NCBI RefSeq assembly: GCF_900473965.1
Contig: NZ_UCNJ01000012.1
Location: 186,001-250,000, forward strand
Length of the DNA stretch: 64,000 bases
Direction: 5' to 3'
From: Synechococcus sp. UW179A
GTDB lineage: Bacteria > Cyanobacteriota > Cyanobacteriia > PCC-6307 > Cyanobiaceae
The position numbers were made by a program, and so were the translations under genes. This document shows positions 10,668 to 18,740 of the stretch, one piece after another (the first letter of the stretch is position 1; every line of letters starts with the position of its first letter). The notes below the pieces were generated by a model, which had not been told where the DNA came from, did no database searches, and was given only the letters and a program-made list of their open reading frames with translations.

Positions 10668-11795
10668 TCAGGCGAGGGATTCAAGGCAACGACTGACATC
10701 CTCGTCGCTGATTTCGTCACTGATGATCACGTTGCCGATCCGGGTCGGCAGGACGAAACGCAGTCGCCCGTGTCGAACCTTTTTATCGCCTTGCAAGGTC
10801 CGCAGTGCTGCCTCCCGATCAAGGGTTGGCCAGGCCACAGGTAAACCGGCTTTCTTGATGAGTTTCAGCTGGCGCTGTTGATCAGCTTCGCTCCAGAGAC
10901 CTTTCTGGACGGCGAGGCGCCCAACTGCCGCCATGCCAATCGCCACGGCTTCGCCATGCAGCCACGTTCCGTATCCGGTGAGGGTCTCAACCACATGACC
11001 GAAGGTGTGCCCGTAATTAAGGATTGCGCGGCGGCCTCCCTCCTTTTCATCGTCAGCGACCACCAATGCCTTGGCTTCCGCTGAGAGCACAAGAATGTCA
11101 TGAAGCAACGTCGGATCCATTGCTGTGGGATCAGAGAGGTCTGAGGCCTCCTCCAGACGTCTGAACAGGCCAGGGTCTCCAATCACCCCGTATTTGATCA
11201 CTTCGGCCATGCCAGCCCGGAATTCCCTCACAGGAAGCGTGTTGAGTGTCAAAGGATCGATGACAACCAGGCGCGGCTGGTGGAAGGCTCCGATCAGATT
11301 CTTCCCCTTCGGATGGTTCACACCGGTCTTGCCACCGATGGAGGCATCCACCATGGACAGAAGAGTGGTCGGAACCTGGACGATGCCGATACCGCGCAGC
11401 CAGCATGCCGCCGCAAAGCCCGTCATGTCACCGACAACGCCACCTCCAAGCGCCAGCATTAGGGAGGTGCGCTCAAGACCCTCCTGTTGAGCCTTGTCGA
11501 GGATCAAACTCAGTGTTTGGAGTGTTTTTCGTTCCTCGCCCGCATCGATTTCCAGCAGCACCGGGTTGAATCCTGCAGCTTTGAGTCCATTCAGGCAGAT
11601 GTCGCCGTAAGGTCCGGCGACATCAGGGTTGCTCACTACAAGAATTTTGGTCCCTGACCGAATCGGCAAATCGGCCAGTGCAGCGCCGATCGCTCCCACC
11701 ATCGAACAGCCGATGATCACGTCGTAGGGATTGTGCTCAAGGGACACCGTGATCCTTGTGTGTTCCTGCAAGTCAGCTGCCTGCGCTGTGCTCAT
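10668..11795 (-). CDS. aroB: 3-dehydroquinate synthase
   Basis: Second step of the shikimate pathway, converting DAHP to 3-dehydroquinate with NAD and a divalent metal. Clear motifs are [15 protein letters not shown] (NAD binding), [44 protein letters not shown] and HGEAVAIGM, with metal ligands in EVIKYG and the two His motifs. The longest ORF starts at 11906, but [12 protein letters not shown] from ATG 11795 leads directly into the usual first strand ([15 protein letters not shown]). The length of 375 residues fits the family. It is divergent from the ABC permease. Confidence 0.95.
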
Positions 11796-12769: not shown

Positions 12770-12821
12770 ACCACTCCTTTGAGGGTCGGATGGCAAGCTT
12801 CAGTGAAGGACATCAGTGGCC

Positions 12822-13988
12822 ATGGCCAGCGCTGCCGGAACAATTGGAGTTGTTGGGGGTGGTCAGCTCGCACTGATGCTGTGTGAAGCAGCAAAGACAC
12901 GGAATGTTGATGTGATCGTGCAAAGTGCGTCTGACCAGGATCCGGCGATGGCTGTCGCTCAGGGGCAAGTCTTGGGTGCAGCCTCAGATGCTGCCGCAAC
13001 TGCGGAATTATTGAAGCGCTGCCAACACATCACTTTTGAGAATGAGTGGATCCCTGTTGAAGCGTTGCGAGCTTTGGATAGTGATGGAGTGCTGTTTTCC
13101 CCTTCCCTCGACAGTCTGCTGCCGTTGGTGAACAAGCTGTCTCAACGCCGAATGCTGGATGATTTAGCGATTCCAAGTCCGGCTTGGGTTGCTCTGGATG
13201 AGATCAACACCGACTCGCCGGCTCTCCCTTCTGGCTGGACGTTTCCAGTGATGGCCAAAGCGGCTCATGGCGGTTACGACGGCAAGGGGACCTGTGTGGT
13301 CAGCGATCTCAAGTCTCTTCAGGATCTGTTGAGCAGCGTGTCAGTTGAGGATTGGCTACTGGAAGCCTGGGTCACTTACGAACGTGAACTGGCGCTGGTC
13401 GTCAGTCGCGATCAGCACGGACGAATCCGTAGCCTTCCACTGGTGGAAACGCATCAGAAGAATCAGGTGTGTGACTGGGTTCTTGCTCCTGCACAGTCGG
13501 AGCAGTTGTTGGAAGCCACTGCATACAACATTGCTGCATCCCTGCTCACAAGCCTCAATTACGTGGGAGTGATGGCTCTTGAATTCTTTTATGGCCCAGC
13601 AGGTTTGATGGTGAACGAAATTGCGCCACGCACGCACAACTCTGGCCATTTCTCCATTGAAGCGTGCAGCAGTAGTCAATTCGATCAGCAGCTCTGCATT
13701 ACAGGAGAGCTGCCAGTGCCGGCATCAGATCTTGTGGTGCCAGGTGCGCTCATGGTGAATCTTCTTGGTTTGTCTTCTGAGGGCAGCGAACCGCTGCAAT
13801 CCAGGCTCGCTGCTCTGGAGGCCATTCCCAGGTCCCACCTGCATTGGTATGGCAAGCAGGAAGTGCCTGGAAGGAAGGTTGGACATGTGACTGTGCTGCT
13901 TAAGCAAGCCGAATCCGATGCTCGTGGCCAGGAAGCTCAAAGCCTTCTGAAGCAAATCCGTGAGGTCTGGCCGAATCCCTTACATTGA
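12822..13988 (+). CDS. purK: N5-carboxyaminoimidazole ribonucleotide synthase
   Basis: ATP-dependent carboxylation of AIR in purine synthesis, using an ATP-grasp fold. The N-terminus IGVVGGGQLALMLCEAA is diagnostic. MAKAAHGGYDGKGTCVV is the ATP-grasp loop, and EFFYGPAGLMVNEIAPRTHNSGHFSIEAC carries the metal and substrate residues (shown only as family features; key stretch NEIAPRTHNSGH). A GTG at 12816 would add two residues; I prefer ATG 12822. A 6S RNA candidate follows directly, as is usual for purK in cyanobacteria. Confidence 0.94.
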   Translation: MASAAGTIGVVGGGQLALMLCEAAKTRNVDVIVQSASDQDPAMAVAQGQVLGAASDAAATAELLKRCQHITFENEWIPVEALRALDSDGVLFSPSLDSLLPLVNKLSQRRMLDDLAIPSPAWVALDEINTDSPALPSGWTFPVMAKAAHGGYDGKGTCVVSDLKSLQDLLSSVSVEDWLLEAWVTYERELALVVSRDQHGRIRSLPLVETHQKNQVCDWVLAPAQSEQLLEATAYNIAASLLTSLNYVGVMALEFFYGPAGLMVNEIAPRTHNSGHFSIEACSSSQFDQQLCITGELPVPASDLVVPGALMVNLLGLSSEGSEPLQSRLAALEAIPRSHLHWYGKQEVPGRKVGHVTVLLKQAESDARGQEAQSLLKQIREVWPNPLH

Positions 13989-14021
13989 CACCGGACTGCC
14001 TGGTTGGTGACAGCCTTTTTC

Positions 14022-14209
14022 TAGTGCTCTGATCTGACTCTCTTTCGACTTGGGGCGACTGTCGTGAAGGCGCCGTAGACCGGCCTTGTAGCCGGAAACG
14101 AATCCTCACTTTGTTGCCCCTTCTGGTAAATCCAGGTCGAACACTGGGGCTCGCACGGTCAGGTGGTCCACCCCAAAACAGCATGGGTTTTCAGCGAACC
14201 GAACACTAG
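14022..14209 (+). ncRNA. ssrS: Putative 6S RNA (ssaA/ssrS) downstream of purK
   Basis: A GC-rich non-coding stretch of about 188 nt whose ends pair: CTAGTG at 14022-14027 with CACTAG at 14204-14209. Internally GGGGCGAC (14052-14059) pairs with GTTGCCCC (14113-14120), allowing one G-U, and CCGGC/GCCGG form a small hairpin between them. The length, closed-end topology and place immediately after purK match cyanobacterial 6S RNA, which binds RNA polymerase by mimicking an open promoter. The exact ends and the central bubble were not confirmed by folding. The alternative is a long purK 3' UTR. Confidence 0.6.
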
Positions 14210-14712: not shown

Positions 14713-15162
14713 ATGAAACTGCCAACCCTCCTCGGTTCTCTGCTCCTCTCAGCATCGTCTGCCATTGCTGATGACTTTCTTTATTTGAGGTGCAAGCTGT
14801 CAGTTGATATGGTTATTACTAATCCAGCAACATCCGAAACAGTTGAAGATAGAACAATGGAAGACATATCAACTCTTAAAATAAACTTTGCGAAGAAAAC
14901 AATTCTCGACTCTCGCTCTGAAGGAACACTTGATATTGCCATTCAAGATAAAATTTTGACAATACCTCAGAGAATTGATGACAAAAAATTGAAGTTAATT
15001 GATATAGGCAAGATTAAATTAACTCCACCTTATCTTATGTCTGGTAAAGGAACAGCAATATACAAATCTAAGAATCAAACATCGACTTACAGCTACGAAG
15101 GTCTGTGCAAAGAGGTTGATGCATCAGTTTTTGAGAAGGCTTTGAAAGAGTCTGAGAGTTGA
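14713..15162 (+). CDS. Small exported protein of unknown function
   Basis: A 149-residue protein with a signal peptide (MKLPTLLGSLLLSASSAIA, cleaved before DDFLYLRC). The mature part is beta-rich and polar with two Cys (YLRCKLS and EGLCKEV) placed near the two ends, suggesting a disulfide-closed domain. It lies in the AT-rich island. A decayed copy of the same family lies 2.2 kb downstream (16985-17425), with matching signal peptide and C-terminal GLC..VFEK motif, so the family has duplicated here. The function is unknown. Confidence 0.7.
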   Translation: MKLPTLLGSLLLSASSAIADDFLYLRCKLSVDMVITNPATSETVEDRTMEDISTLKINFAKKTILDSRSEGTLDIAIQDKILTIPQRIDDKKLKLIDIGKIKLTPPYLMSGKGTAIYKSKNQTSTYSYEGLCKEVDASVFEKALKESES

Positions 15163-15762: not shown

Positions 15763-15897
15763 TCACTTCAGCACTTTATGGGCGGTTCCGTCACCGTCAT
15801 ACTTATCTGTATTGTAGAAACCACCCCTTGTACCGAAGTACAGGGTGACTAACACGAATGGAATAGAAACATACAAAAGAACTGTGGATAAAGTCAT
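15763..15897 (-). CDS. 44-residue single-span membrane protein, unknown function
   Basis: A short ORF starting MTLSTVLLYVSIPFVLVTLY, which is one clear membrane span. It continues with a glycine-rich polar tail (FGTRGGFYNTDKYDGDGTAH) and ends KVLK. The clean span and charged tail look like the small thylakoid or plasma-membrane proteins common in cyanobacteria, but I cannot name it. It is the only minus-strand candidate in this part of the island with such composition. No partner gene is adjacent. Confidence 0.6.
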   Translation of the reverse strand: MTLSTVLLYVSIPFVLVTLYFGTRGGFYNTDKYDGDGTAHKVLK

Positions 15898-16024
15898 TTT
15901 TGATCTGAAAAACCCAGTTTGATGTCTCTATGCTAGATGCAAGTCCGTTCAATGTCAGGCTCTACTGCCAGTTGAGTTTCATGTGATCGCTACTTCACAG
16001 TCGCTCATAGAGTGATCGGAGTAG

Positions 16025-16210
16025 TCATGGCAGCGAAGGCCCATGAATCGGGTTGTCTTTCAGTCTCCATTGCGGCTGCAGTCCATAACGATTGTTCTTA
16101 ACTGATATTGAATTTTGTAATTGTTCAAAAGATAGAGTCCAGTCAAAGTGACCTTCTAATTTCGGACCTTTTGCTAACTCGAAAAACCAAGAAAAATACA
16201 CGGCGATCAT
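16025..16210 (-). CDS. Hypothetical small protein
   Basis: A 61-codon ORF with ATG start. It begins hydrophobic and aromatic (MIAVYFSWFFELAKG) and ends with a basic, proline-rich tail (QWRLKDNPIHGPSLP). No known motif was recognised and no ribosome binding site is obvious. It sits between the 44-residue membrane protein and the Nif11 peptide gene, on the opposite strand from the latter. It could be real or chance. Confidence 0.35.
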   Translation of the reverse strand: MIAVYFSWFFELAKGPKLEGHFDWTLSFEQLQNSISVKNNRYGLQPQWRLKDNPIHGPSLP

Positions 16211-16329
16211 AAGTGATACTATTTGCTTAATTAGGCTTACAAGAGTGAGCTACTATTTGAAATCAAGCGAACTAATCTTACAAATAGAACTTTTAGAGTA
16301 TTGTTTAATCTTTTTGTTCGGCAAGTTGA

Positions 16330-16683
16330 ATGATTAATAGTTTTTGCTGTTTACCATTCCTTGTCAGTTTTGGTCAAAAGCGAAATTGTAAACATCAATT
16401 CATTAGGTCAGCCCAGGAAGACCTCTTGAATCTAGTCTTTATCAATCCTGAATTCAGGAAATCCATTACTGAAGCTACAACTCCGGAAGATGCCGTAAGG
16501 CTTGCTGCAGACTTTGGTATTAAAATTACTGTAGAGGATCTACTTTCAGCATTCCAATCCAAGATGTCAGAACTTTCCTCGGAGGAGCTAGAAGCGGTAT
16601 CTGGAGGTCAAAAGCAAGGCAACACTCATGCACATACAAGATGTGAAATTGATTGTGGCCAGGATCCCCCAGATGATAAATAG
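16330..16683 (+). CDS. Nif11-type leader RiPP precursor peptide (prochlorosin-like)
   Basis: Residues 26-93 form a Nif11-like leader: SAQEDLLNLVFINPEFRKSI, then TPEDAVRLAADFGIKIT and LSSEELEAVSGG ending in the double-glycine cleavage site at residues 92-93. The 24-residue core that follows starts QKQGNTHAHTRCEIDCG and contains Thr99, Thr103, Cys105 and Cys109, so one or two (methyl)lanthionine rings are possible. Marine Synechococcus and Prochlorococcus use such leaders with a single promiscuous LanM enzyme encoded elsewhere; none is in this window. Leaders of this family normally begin near the Ser of SAQEDLL, but no ATG/GTG/TTG is there. The ATG at 16330 adds 25 uncharacteristic residues, so the true start is doubtful. 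A strong terminator follows 16 bases after the stop. Confidence 0.75.
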   Translation: MINSFCCLPFLVSFGQKRNCKHQFIRSAQEDLLNLVFINPEFRKSITEATTPEDAVRLAADFGIKITVEDLLSAFQSKMSELSSEELEAVSGGQKQGNTHAHTRCEIDCGQDPPDDK

Positions 16684-16699
16684 TCTTATCAGTCACTTC

Positions 16700-16727
16700 A
16701 AGCCTCGTTAATAGCGAGGCTTTTTTT
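16700..16727 (+). terminator. Rho-independent terminator after the Nif11 peptide gene
   Basis: AAGCCTCG (16700-16707) pairs with CGAGGCTT (16715-16722) around a 7-base loop and is followed by a run of T. It ends the transcript of the RiPP precursor, so the gene is an independent unit. Confidence 0.85.
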
Positions 16728-16984
16728 GTAGGCTGGAATTATTTAGACGCGCTTTTTGTATCTAATTTTCACGGACTCAGACCAGACAATGCGATTAGAC
16801 GGTGTTGTTGTGGCAAAGCAAAGCTCAAGGTTTTGTTAGGGACTACGCGGTTGTTAGCATTAATAAATTATCGAAGAATTAGTATTTCAACTTGGCATCC
16901 CAACTCAAAAGACTTCTTAAATATAATCTCGATTGATCCTGAACTAGGGTATCTATTGCAGCACCTATGTCACCGGAAAAGCAA

Positions 16985-17425
16985 CCAGTGATCAATCTTT
17001 TTTAGTTTATTCCTCTCAGTATCATCAGCTATGGCTGATGACTATTTCTATGTTGAATTTAAAATAAATGGGCTATTTCGATGAAGATCTTGAATTAAAC
17101 AATCGCAGAAAGTTTTGGCGTTGCTGAAATATAGTATTTTGGAGGCGGTGTTTGCAATTAGTTGAATGATGTCTTCGATGAGGTGTGAATAGGATTAAGT
17201 TAAGGTGGTTCAATAATCGACTGTTGAAGTGCAGGAGGAGGTTCATGGAAACAATGTAAGTTTTGCCTCCAGTGATTTCATTCAGCCAAATATTCTTTAC
17301 CTAACTGCAGGGTATTTTCTCATTCAAGATGATGTTTATTCCTATTCACTTTAGGTACATGGTCTATGCATAGAGTTGATTTACCAGTATTTGAGAAAAT
17401 CTGGTGTCTTCCTGAGAGCTAATGT
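16985..17425 (+). pseudogene. Decayed paralogue of the exported protein at 14713
   Basis: The reading frame at about 16992 gives SIFFSLFLSVSSAMADDYFY, which aligns residue for residue with the signal peptide and mature start of the 14713 gene (TLLGSLLLSASSAIADDFLY). The start codon is lost, a TGA precedes this stretch in frame, and another TGA stops it about 28 codons later. Near the end, GGTCTATGCATAGAG followed by a one-base deletion and LPVFEKIW matches the intact gene's GLCKEVDASVFEKAL. The middle is diverged. It is therefore a frameshifted, stop-interrupted copy. Confidence 0.7.
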
Positions 17426-17486
17426 TCTGAGCCTTTGTTTTTCATTCCCCTAAAGGAGCTAGAGATAACCCTGAAATTTGGTCCTA

Positions 17487-17720
17487 ATGGGGGATGTGCT
17501 TTTTTCTTGGGCTTGCGATGGTAAAGCAGCACTGAGGGCATCTGTGAAACCACAAGAGATTGACGCGATGTATTGGAAGTATCTGCAAGGAATTAGCTAC
17601 CACCACTTTAAGGGTTATCTAAGGCAATTAGATGCTGAAGAGTATTTTTCTGATCTCTATCCAGGTGTCTTGAAGAAGCTAGAAGCCTGTGCTGCTATTC
17701 GTGTGTGTGAGGATGAATAA
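17487..17720 (+). CDS. Hypothetical protein, coupled to the next gene
   Basis: A 77-residue protein of unknown function, mostly helical and soluble (KPQEIDAMYWKYLQG, YHHFKGYLRQLDAEEYF). It contains three Cys. Its TAA stop overlaps the next ATG as TAATG, so the two genes are translationally coupled. A TTG nine bases upstream is possible; I chose the ATG. The family was not recognised, and the base composition is that of the island. Confidence 0.55.
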   Translation: MGDVLFSWACDGKAALRASVKPQEIDAMYWKYLQGISYHHFKGYLRQLDAEEYFSDLYPGVLKKLEACAAIRVCEDE

Positions 17721-18058
17721 TGAAAGTGTTACTTGTTTTTTTATCTATCATGGCATCACCTCTTTCAGCTAGTGCTAGTGAATGGATCACATTTGATAAG
17801 GCAACAGACACCGCTTATTATCAGGTGCGGCATGAAAGAAGGATTGAAAATATTTCATATATAGAAACCAGGCTTATCACTAACGGTCATCATATTTCGA
17901 TAGCTGACAGTGATTATCAGGCTAATTGTAAAGATGGCATTGTAATTGGTAAGTACGGAAAAAATCATTTAGATGCTTATGGAACATGGATATCAACTGA
18001 AACAGGTAGACCTTCTTCGATCTATATTCAAAAACTCTATGATTTTGCTTGCGAATGA
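17720..18058 (+). CDS. Small exported protein of unknown function
   Basis: A 112-residue protein with a signal peptide (MKVLLVFLSIMASPLSASA). The mature part is beta-rich with Cys in YQANCKDG and at the C-terminal DFACE, so a disulfide between them is likely. The pattern of an internal Cys after a polar strand and a terminal Cys resembles small surface or periplasmic proteins, but no family is asserted. Translation is coupled to the preceding gene through TAATG, suggesting that a soluble partner and an exported protein act together. Confidence 0.6.
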   Translation: MKVLLVFLSIMASPLSASASEWITFDKATDTAYYQVRHERRIENISYIETRLITNGHHISIADSDYQANCKDGIVIGKYGKNHLDAYGTWISTETGRPSSIYIQKLYDFACE

Positions 18059-18740
18059 ATAGGATCCATGAATGCATGTTTCCATTATTCCATGATTGAA
18101 GCAGCGACAATCTTTTTATGCACTGATCCTTAAGCTGTTTTCTATAATTTAAAAAATTAGGTCATTTCTTTTCATCATGTGCTGTTCTTCTGGTGGTGTT
18201 AAGACTTGGCATTAGCATCTATAGGATGAGCGTTAGTTTGGTCGGCGGGGAGTTTTAAGGAAGATAAGATGACTTTTTCTTTCCACACTCATTCGCTGAC
18301 CATAACGGTTCCTCCACTTTGTATTCGCACTGCCCCCTTTTTTAGACAGCTTATTGTGAGTAATTCTTTTTGGATTAATGGTAGCTAGGAGTGTTTTTAC
18401 TTCATCACCACTACATTGCTTTCTTTACTTCTTTGACTCATCAATCCAGATTAGGCAGATCAGTTCTTTCCTGCTTGAGTAGCTCTATGTAGAGGTGACG
18501 AAGTGCTTAGTTATATTGTCTCTTTTCAATGAGTATAAACTGAGGATAAGCGTTATCTGCTTGCGCTTAAATGACCTTTTCTTTACCAATGTTGTAGATT
18601 TTTTCAGTGTTTTGTCAGTTTGCGGCAATATTTGCTGCATAACATGATTGCAATATTCTGAGGCACTATGTTGATTTTGTTTTTTGCATGGACTACATTT
18701 TCCTAGATACTCATGTGTGAAGTTATGAAGGTTTGTACAA
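18059..18740. other. AT-rich gene-free stretch
   Basis: No supported gene. A 39-codon ORF from ATG at about 18269 has an AGGA upstream but a composition without recognisable features. I found no tRNA, terminator or strong repeat. Confidence 0.4.

Follow-up and report, generated by a model that had tools for sequence, protein, structure and literature searches.

Is a small open reading frame (ORF) that resembles a peptide precursor and stands alone in a genomic island still a working gene? The locus analysed here is the ORF at positions 16330-16683 (plus strand, 117 codons from its ATG) in 64,000 nucleotides of Synechococcus sp. UW179A DNA, this whole stretch being the window. An earlier note, made from the letters alone, had described the ORF as an orphan Nif11-leader RiPP precursor within an island, consisting of a Nif11-like leader and a core of 24 residues, two of them Thr and two Cys, followed by a strong terminator and having no modification enzyme beside it, and had considered either thioether rings, as made by a dispersed LanM in marine picocyanobacteria, or another Nif11 pathway.

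The gene and its family

The HMM search bears out the leader: the NCBIfam model TIGR03798 matches residues 32-93 of the ORF with 45.2 bits (cut-off 32.3) and Pfam Nif11 matches with 25.7 bits (cut-off 23.8). TIGR03798, the alignment of homologues, nhmmer and dN/dS delimit a Nif11-type leader of 68 codons ending in GG at 16405-16608 on the plus strand, preceded by an in-frame extension of 25 codons from the ATG at 16330 to position 16404, as seen from the ORF and from comparison with relatives. The leader ends in ...SELSSEELEAVSGG, an acidic ELSxEELExxxGG motif with its GG-type cleavage site. The core QKQGNTHAHTRCEIDCGQDPPDDK (16609-16680, plus strand) follows the GG as described, its 24 residues including Thr6, Thr10, Cys12 and Cys16 and no Ser, and it is related to the core of locus L027 in the congeneric genome G017. 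From 16405 to the stop the frame is undamaged over 92 codons. The predicted terminator corresponds to an intrinsic terminator with a 10-pair stem and a T run (16700-16722, plus strand), found by a hairpin scan and by folding (-13.9 kcal/mol, z -3.9, equalled by one of 200 shuffles); between 16000 and 17200 there are two terminator-like sites compared to a shuffle mean of 0.8. Judged by its sequence, the gene genuinely belongs to a known kind and descends from Nif11-leader RiPP precursors.

A leader sub-clade shared with one congeneric genome

Searching 60 genomes with the protein gave matches in 12 of them including the window's own, the close ones all lying in G017 (3.3 Mb, one contig), with the best being 66-68% identical. 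The leaders of this sub-clade follow the consensus MSAQEDLLN..TN.E.R.SIT.ATT.EEAV...KMSELSxEELEAVxGGK, their N-terminus reading MSAQEDLL or similar and that of the window gene RSAQEDLL. A profile of eight sub-clade leaders finds matches at 1e-10 in four of 31 congeneric genomes and scores above 130 bits only in two, i.e. in the window's genome with this gene and in G017 with at least seven genes, all intact, a lower bound from scoring the best 150 of 230 candidates. Across 400 genomes of the family at least three have matches at 1e-12, scoring the best 12 candidates in each genome. The candidate member in G192, the third of these genomes, was rejected, being an ordinary Nif11 precursor (L118). 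Scanning genome contigs with the window protein and with the leader alignment returned 114 and 438 pattern-matching stretches, respectively, none of which was confirmed; near records may be absent from these scans. Besides this gene, the window's own genome contains one clade relative, L039, whose core of six residues (KGRTVG) lacks Cys. The wider clade in G017 also includes GG leaders followed by cores without Cys (L063, L064, L070 and L087 near 2256).

Loss of the leader start codon

By homology the first leader codon lies at 16405-16407 and reads AGG, leaving the window gene without a start codon at the place where the leaders of the family start. ATG stands at the aligned first codon in all 14 intact homologues examined, drawn from 15 loci besides that of the window: 12 gave an ORF with a search pattern that need not begin with Met, Met nevertheless aligning in all 12, and L069 and L070, both with Met, complete the set, leaving out the frameshifted copy L065. 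The frameshifted G017 copy has ATG at its leader start as well. Among 89 leaders of the examined loci in two genomes, 85 begin with ATG, two with TTG, one with ATC and one with AGG, the latter being the window gene; these leaders are the pattern-recognised part of the precursors of both genomes, in a register favouring an initial Met, with L067 shifted by one codon and counted as ATG. The leader with ATC is L085, a classic leader near position 10940 on the opposite strand when the G017 island is read in window orientation, making it a second candidate for start loss. The AGG of the window gene is possibly a base error of the draft assembly.

The gene might still be a working precursor using another start, either the ATG at 16330, giving 117 residues with the 25-residue extension, or the in-frame TTG at 16426-16428, giving a leader seven residues shorter and keeping 61 of 68 leader residues; we regard this as possible although doubtful. 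It is favoured by the frame being open from 16330, by the intact core and terminator and by the low dN/dS of the leader. Pairwise dN/dS with intact paralogues amounts to 0.07-0.17 in six of seven pairs, much like the values among the intact ones, dS being saturated for the seventh paralogue L027, and the window gene has three private changes at otherwise invariant columns compared to zero to four in the other seven leaders. Accordingly, the coding sequence was constrained for most of its history, and the start loss looks recent. Maturation may also tolerate an altered N-terminus, because the enzymes involved mainly read the leader towards its C-terminal end: ProcM reportedly needs only about three quarters of it (PMC10783134) and the C39 protease LahT150 recognises its last 13 residues (PMC6363468).

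The sequences around both alternative starts argue the other way. The extension has no clear counterpart among the seven upstream frames of homologues with which it was compared, showing weak likeness to those of L046 (reached by 103 of 5000 shuffles) and L027 (161 of 5000), which is slight for seven comparisons; this likeness counts for an alternative start, as does the protein match to the L046 gene, which begins at query residue 2. The upstream DNA is not alike, none of 12 homologues standing out and the best being reached by 56 of 1000 shuffles. Upstream of 16330 the computed pairing energy to a generic 16S tail amounts to -1.7 kcal/mol, upstream of 16426 to -4.3 kcal/mol; compared to random 20-mers of the region (median -2.4, 5% point -7.2) neither start stands out, and the AGGA before the TTG is not distinct from random stretches. 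No promoter-like site was found upstream of the gene on the plus strand within 16000-17200, the total number of such sites there being at shuffle level. The ATG at 16330, from which the ORF was originally read, is probably accidental and the extension probably exists by chance.

The island and its remnants

The placement of the gene in an island holds, the G+C content being 37-49% from about 14.0 to 25.0 kb and 54-58% in the flanks. A profile built from seven intact leaders, leaving out the window's, finds the gene by nhmmer at 1.6e-49. At 8e-6 it additionally finds a fragmentary second copy from that leader subfamily, a remnant at 16908-16980 (plus strand), the next best match in the 64 kb being at 0.33. 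G017 has a matching island with the same flanks (left 90% and right 75% identical) and a shared block corresponding to 17434-18060 at 73% identity. It contains two sub-clade copies on the same strand, one intact and the other disrupted by frame changes and an in-frame stop. In the interval between both copies, a motif scan picks up eight classic precursors, all on the opposite strand. None of these eight is present in the window island, the precursor array having been either lost in the window or gained in G017. In three other congeners, G001, G003 and G011, the left flank and the right-hand anchor are only 3-4 kb apart, as read from match coordinates, and there is no sub-clade match. The window copy could possibly be what remained after recombination of two direct copies arranged as in the G017 island; we do not claim this reading of the sequences, because an insertion in G017 explains the order of the parts equally well.

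Several further features accompany the island. A 6S RNA (Rfam RF00013, 92.1 bits; 13990-14173) is placed after the gene at 12816-13988 and immediately before the low-G+C region, adjoining the island edge as if it marked it. A 149-residue ORF with a signal-like start (14713-15162) has no Pfam or NCBIfam match, and its DNA has matches at several places in G016 (contigs 45 and 48) as well as in G002, which looks like a multi-copy family in relatives. The minus strand at 15769-15900 encodes a possible membrane micro-protein, MTLSTVLLYVSIPFVLVTLYFGTRGGFYNTDKYDGDGTAHKVL, likewise without Pfam or NCBIfam match, the surroundings of which recur once per genome, at 85-88% identity, in G017, G011, G001 and G026. 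Two small ORFs at 17478-18058 without Pfam or NCBIfam matches are also present in the G017 counterpart of the island, in DNA of 73% identity.

The core and its relation to the leader

Aligning the window core THAHTRCEIDCG with the L027 core THRHTACVIDCG gives a local score of 56, reached by none of 20,000 shuffles (maximum 42), both cores having an identical T-x3-T-x-C-x3-C spacing. None of the other eight cores stands out against the window core, the best score being reached by 151 of 2000 shuffles. Among 400 family genomes, three contain a DNA pattern for HTxCxIDC, and only in the window's genome and G017 does it stand behind a Nif11 leader; the match in G078, a short frame without leader, was dropped as chance. 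Cys together with Ser or Thr is present in 82 of the 89 cores from the examined loci of the two genomes. The L027 gene resembles the window gene further in its leader, which is 75% identical in amino acids; it differs by having an ATG, by stopping right after DCG and by lying elsewhere in its genome among other precursors. A difference of four bases, as judged by eye, gives the window core seven more residues than that of L027.

The DNA tree places the window leader beside L038 and L060 (support 83/93) and the L027 leader beside L046 and L053 (92/96), both forks falling below the mark of strong support. This grouping differs from the kinship of the cores and suggests that leader and core may have been exchanged as modules, the leader being nearer to L038/L060 and the core having the same source as that of L027. 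The protein tree, which does not resolve the position of the window leader among the eight sub-clade leaders, weakens this reading, as does the first third of the leader being closest to L027 (17 of 22 residues); the last third is closest to L060 (22 of 23) and L038 (21 of 23). A more far-reaching reading, combining a two-species sub-clade, modular leader/core exchange, translation from a replacement start and selection on a rare T-x3-T-x-C-x3-C core, appears unlikely to us.

Maturation enzymes and other pathways

The genome of the window (3.06 Mb in 35 contigs, estimated to be 99.97% complete) contains 117 Nif11 matches, 115 of them above the cut-off, three with an internal stop within the match, and one inside the window. 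Its only LANC_like match is on another contig (C25), in agreement with there being no modification enzyme beside the precursor. This LANC_like gene encodes an intact ProcM-like LanM of 1127 residues with the CCG motif HLCCGTFG, which shares 90% identity with one LanM from G017. Upstream of it there are TolC-like and HlyD-like ORFs, named so from our reading of the ORFs, a C39 ABC transporter assigned by family match and a second ABC transporter. The genome search therefore confirms the dispersed LanM anticipated by the earlier note and also finds C39 transporters, the genome having four C39 domains. With 117 Nif11 matches, one LanM and four C39 domains, the orphan status of the gene is normal for the family; ProcA/SyncA-type genes in Synechococcus generally have no enzyme next to them, as described in PMC10783134. 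The same paper reports 79 precursors and a YcaO for UW179A, and two ProcM-like enzymes, 143 precursors and two YcaO clusters for BIOS-E1-4. The earlier note had made its claim depend on a Nif11 match and on a modifying enzyme or homologous precursors in the genome or its relatives, and all three were found.

G017 has two LANC_like and two YcaO matches. Its second LanM (1106 residues, with a CCG motif and 43% identity to the main enzyme) is absent from the window's genome and lies with its own adjacent precursor, which has a different leader, at locus L112 (8473-11793 and 12408-12677). On the comparison of two genomes, a pairing of the sub-clade with this second LanM is conceivable, though the enzyme has its own adjacent precursor.

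That the gene is instead a precursor of another Nif11 pathway, e.g. for a YcaO-dependent azole-type product, we consider quite improbable. The genome does have one YcaO on the same contig (C12:377426), and some wider-clade cores of G017 lack Cys (L063, L064, L087 and L070, mentioned above); yet this YcaO is about 175 kb away from the gene and there is none in the neighbourhood, all seven intact sub-clade cores of G017 contain Cys together with Ser or Thr, and the Thr/Cys spacing is kept in the homologous core of L027. SPASM radical-SAM proteins, pointing to a further Nif11 pathway, gave no match in the window's genome, G017, G004 or G022. A chance open frame, for which its small size and missing pathway neighbours might speak, is refuted for practical purposes by homology, i.e. 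by the TIGR03798 score above cut-off, the nhmmer match to a model built without the gene and the homologous core.

Discussion

Our analysis suggests with moderate probability, as the likeliest reading of the sequences, that the gene is a former prochlorosin/SyncA-type precursor that is now decaying. Its descent from Nif11-leader RiPP precursors stands, whereas its being a working precursor has become doubtful because its start is lost, the second copy is a fragment and the island copy of the relative is frameshifted. There is no sign of long decay, since the frame is undamaged, both Thr and both Cys of the core are kept and the terminator is intact; in-frame starts persist at ATG 16330 and TTG 16426.

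In class II lanthipeptide biosynthesis a LanM binds the leader, dehydrates the core and adds the Cys residues (PMC9872173). The ancestral product of the locus would have been a 68-residue Nif11 leader with its core. Thr6 and Thr10 of this core would be dehydrated by a promiscuous ProcM-like LanM whose gene lies elsewhere, and the addition of Cys12 and Cys16 would result in one or two methyllanthionine rings; the conceivable patterns are overlapping rings (6-12 and 10-16), nested rings (6-16 and 10-12), a single ring or none. A C39 transporter would then cut after the GG and export the product. With AGG at the leader start the native product would no longer be made from its own start, so that little or nothing may be translated from the gene, which we infer to be silent now.

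The gene resembles the ProcA/SyncA precursors (prochlorosins/synechococsins) of marine picocyanobacteria in the Nif11 leader with its ELSxEELExVxGG motif and short Thr/Cys core, in being one of many dispersed orphan genes served by a promiscuous CCG-motif LanM elsewhere, and in the C39 exporter. It differs by the missing native ATG and by a leader beginning with SAQEDLLNLV instead of MS/TEEQL, the N-terminus described as slightly conserved in ProcA/SyncA (PMC10783134); within its sub-clade it is the one copy of its genome, compared to at least seven intact ones in G017. With the Nif11-like leader peptide family of RiPP precursors described by TIGR03798 (N11P; Haft 2010, PMC2887384) it shares profile positions 9-68, the GG and a variable core; positions 1-8 are unmatched, presumably because the leader N-terminus differs. 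The gene kind is already known. The sub-clade, the core shared across genomes and the start loss were not found in print, and the literature searched, most subscription journals lying outside it, contains none of four peptide strings taken from the leader and both cores.

A core conserved in two genomes is unusual for a family the cores of which are described as not conserved, making it a reasonable candidate for function. The changed start codon, the adjoining fragment and the frameshifted copy in the island of a relative together may outline a route by which orphan prochlorosin-type genes fade. Precursor counts obtained with leader models, 117 in this genome, can consequently include genes that are perhaps not translated.
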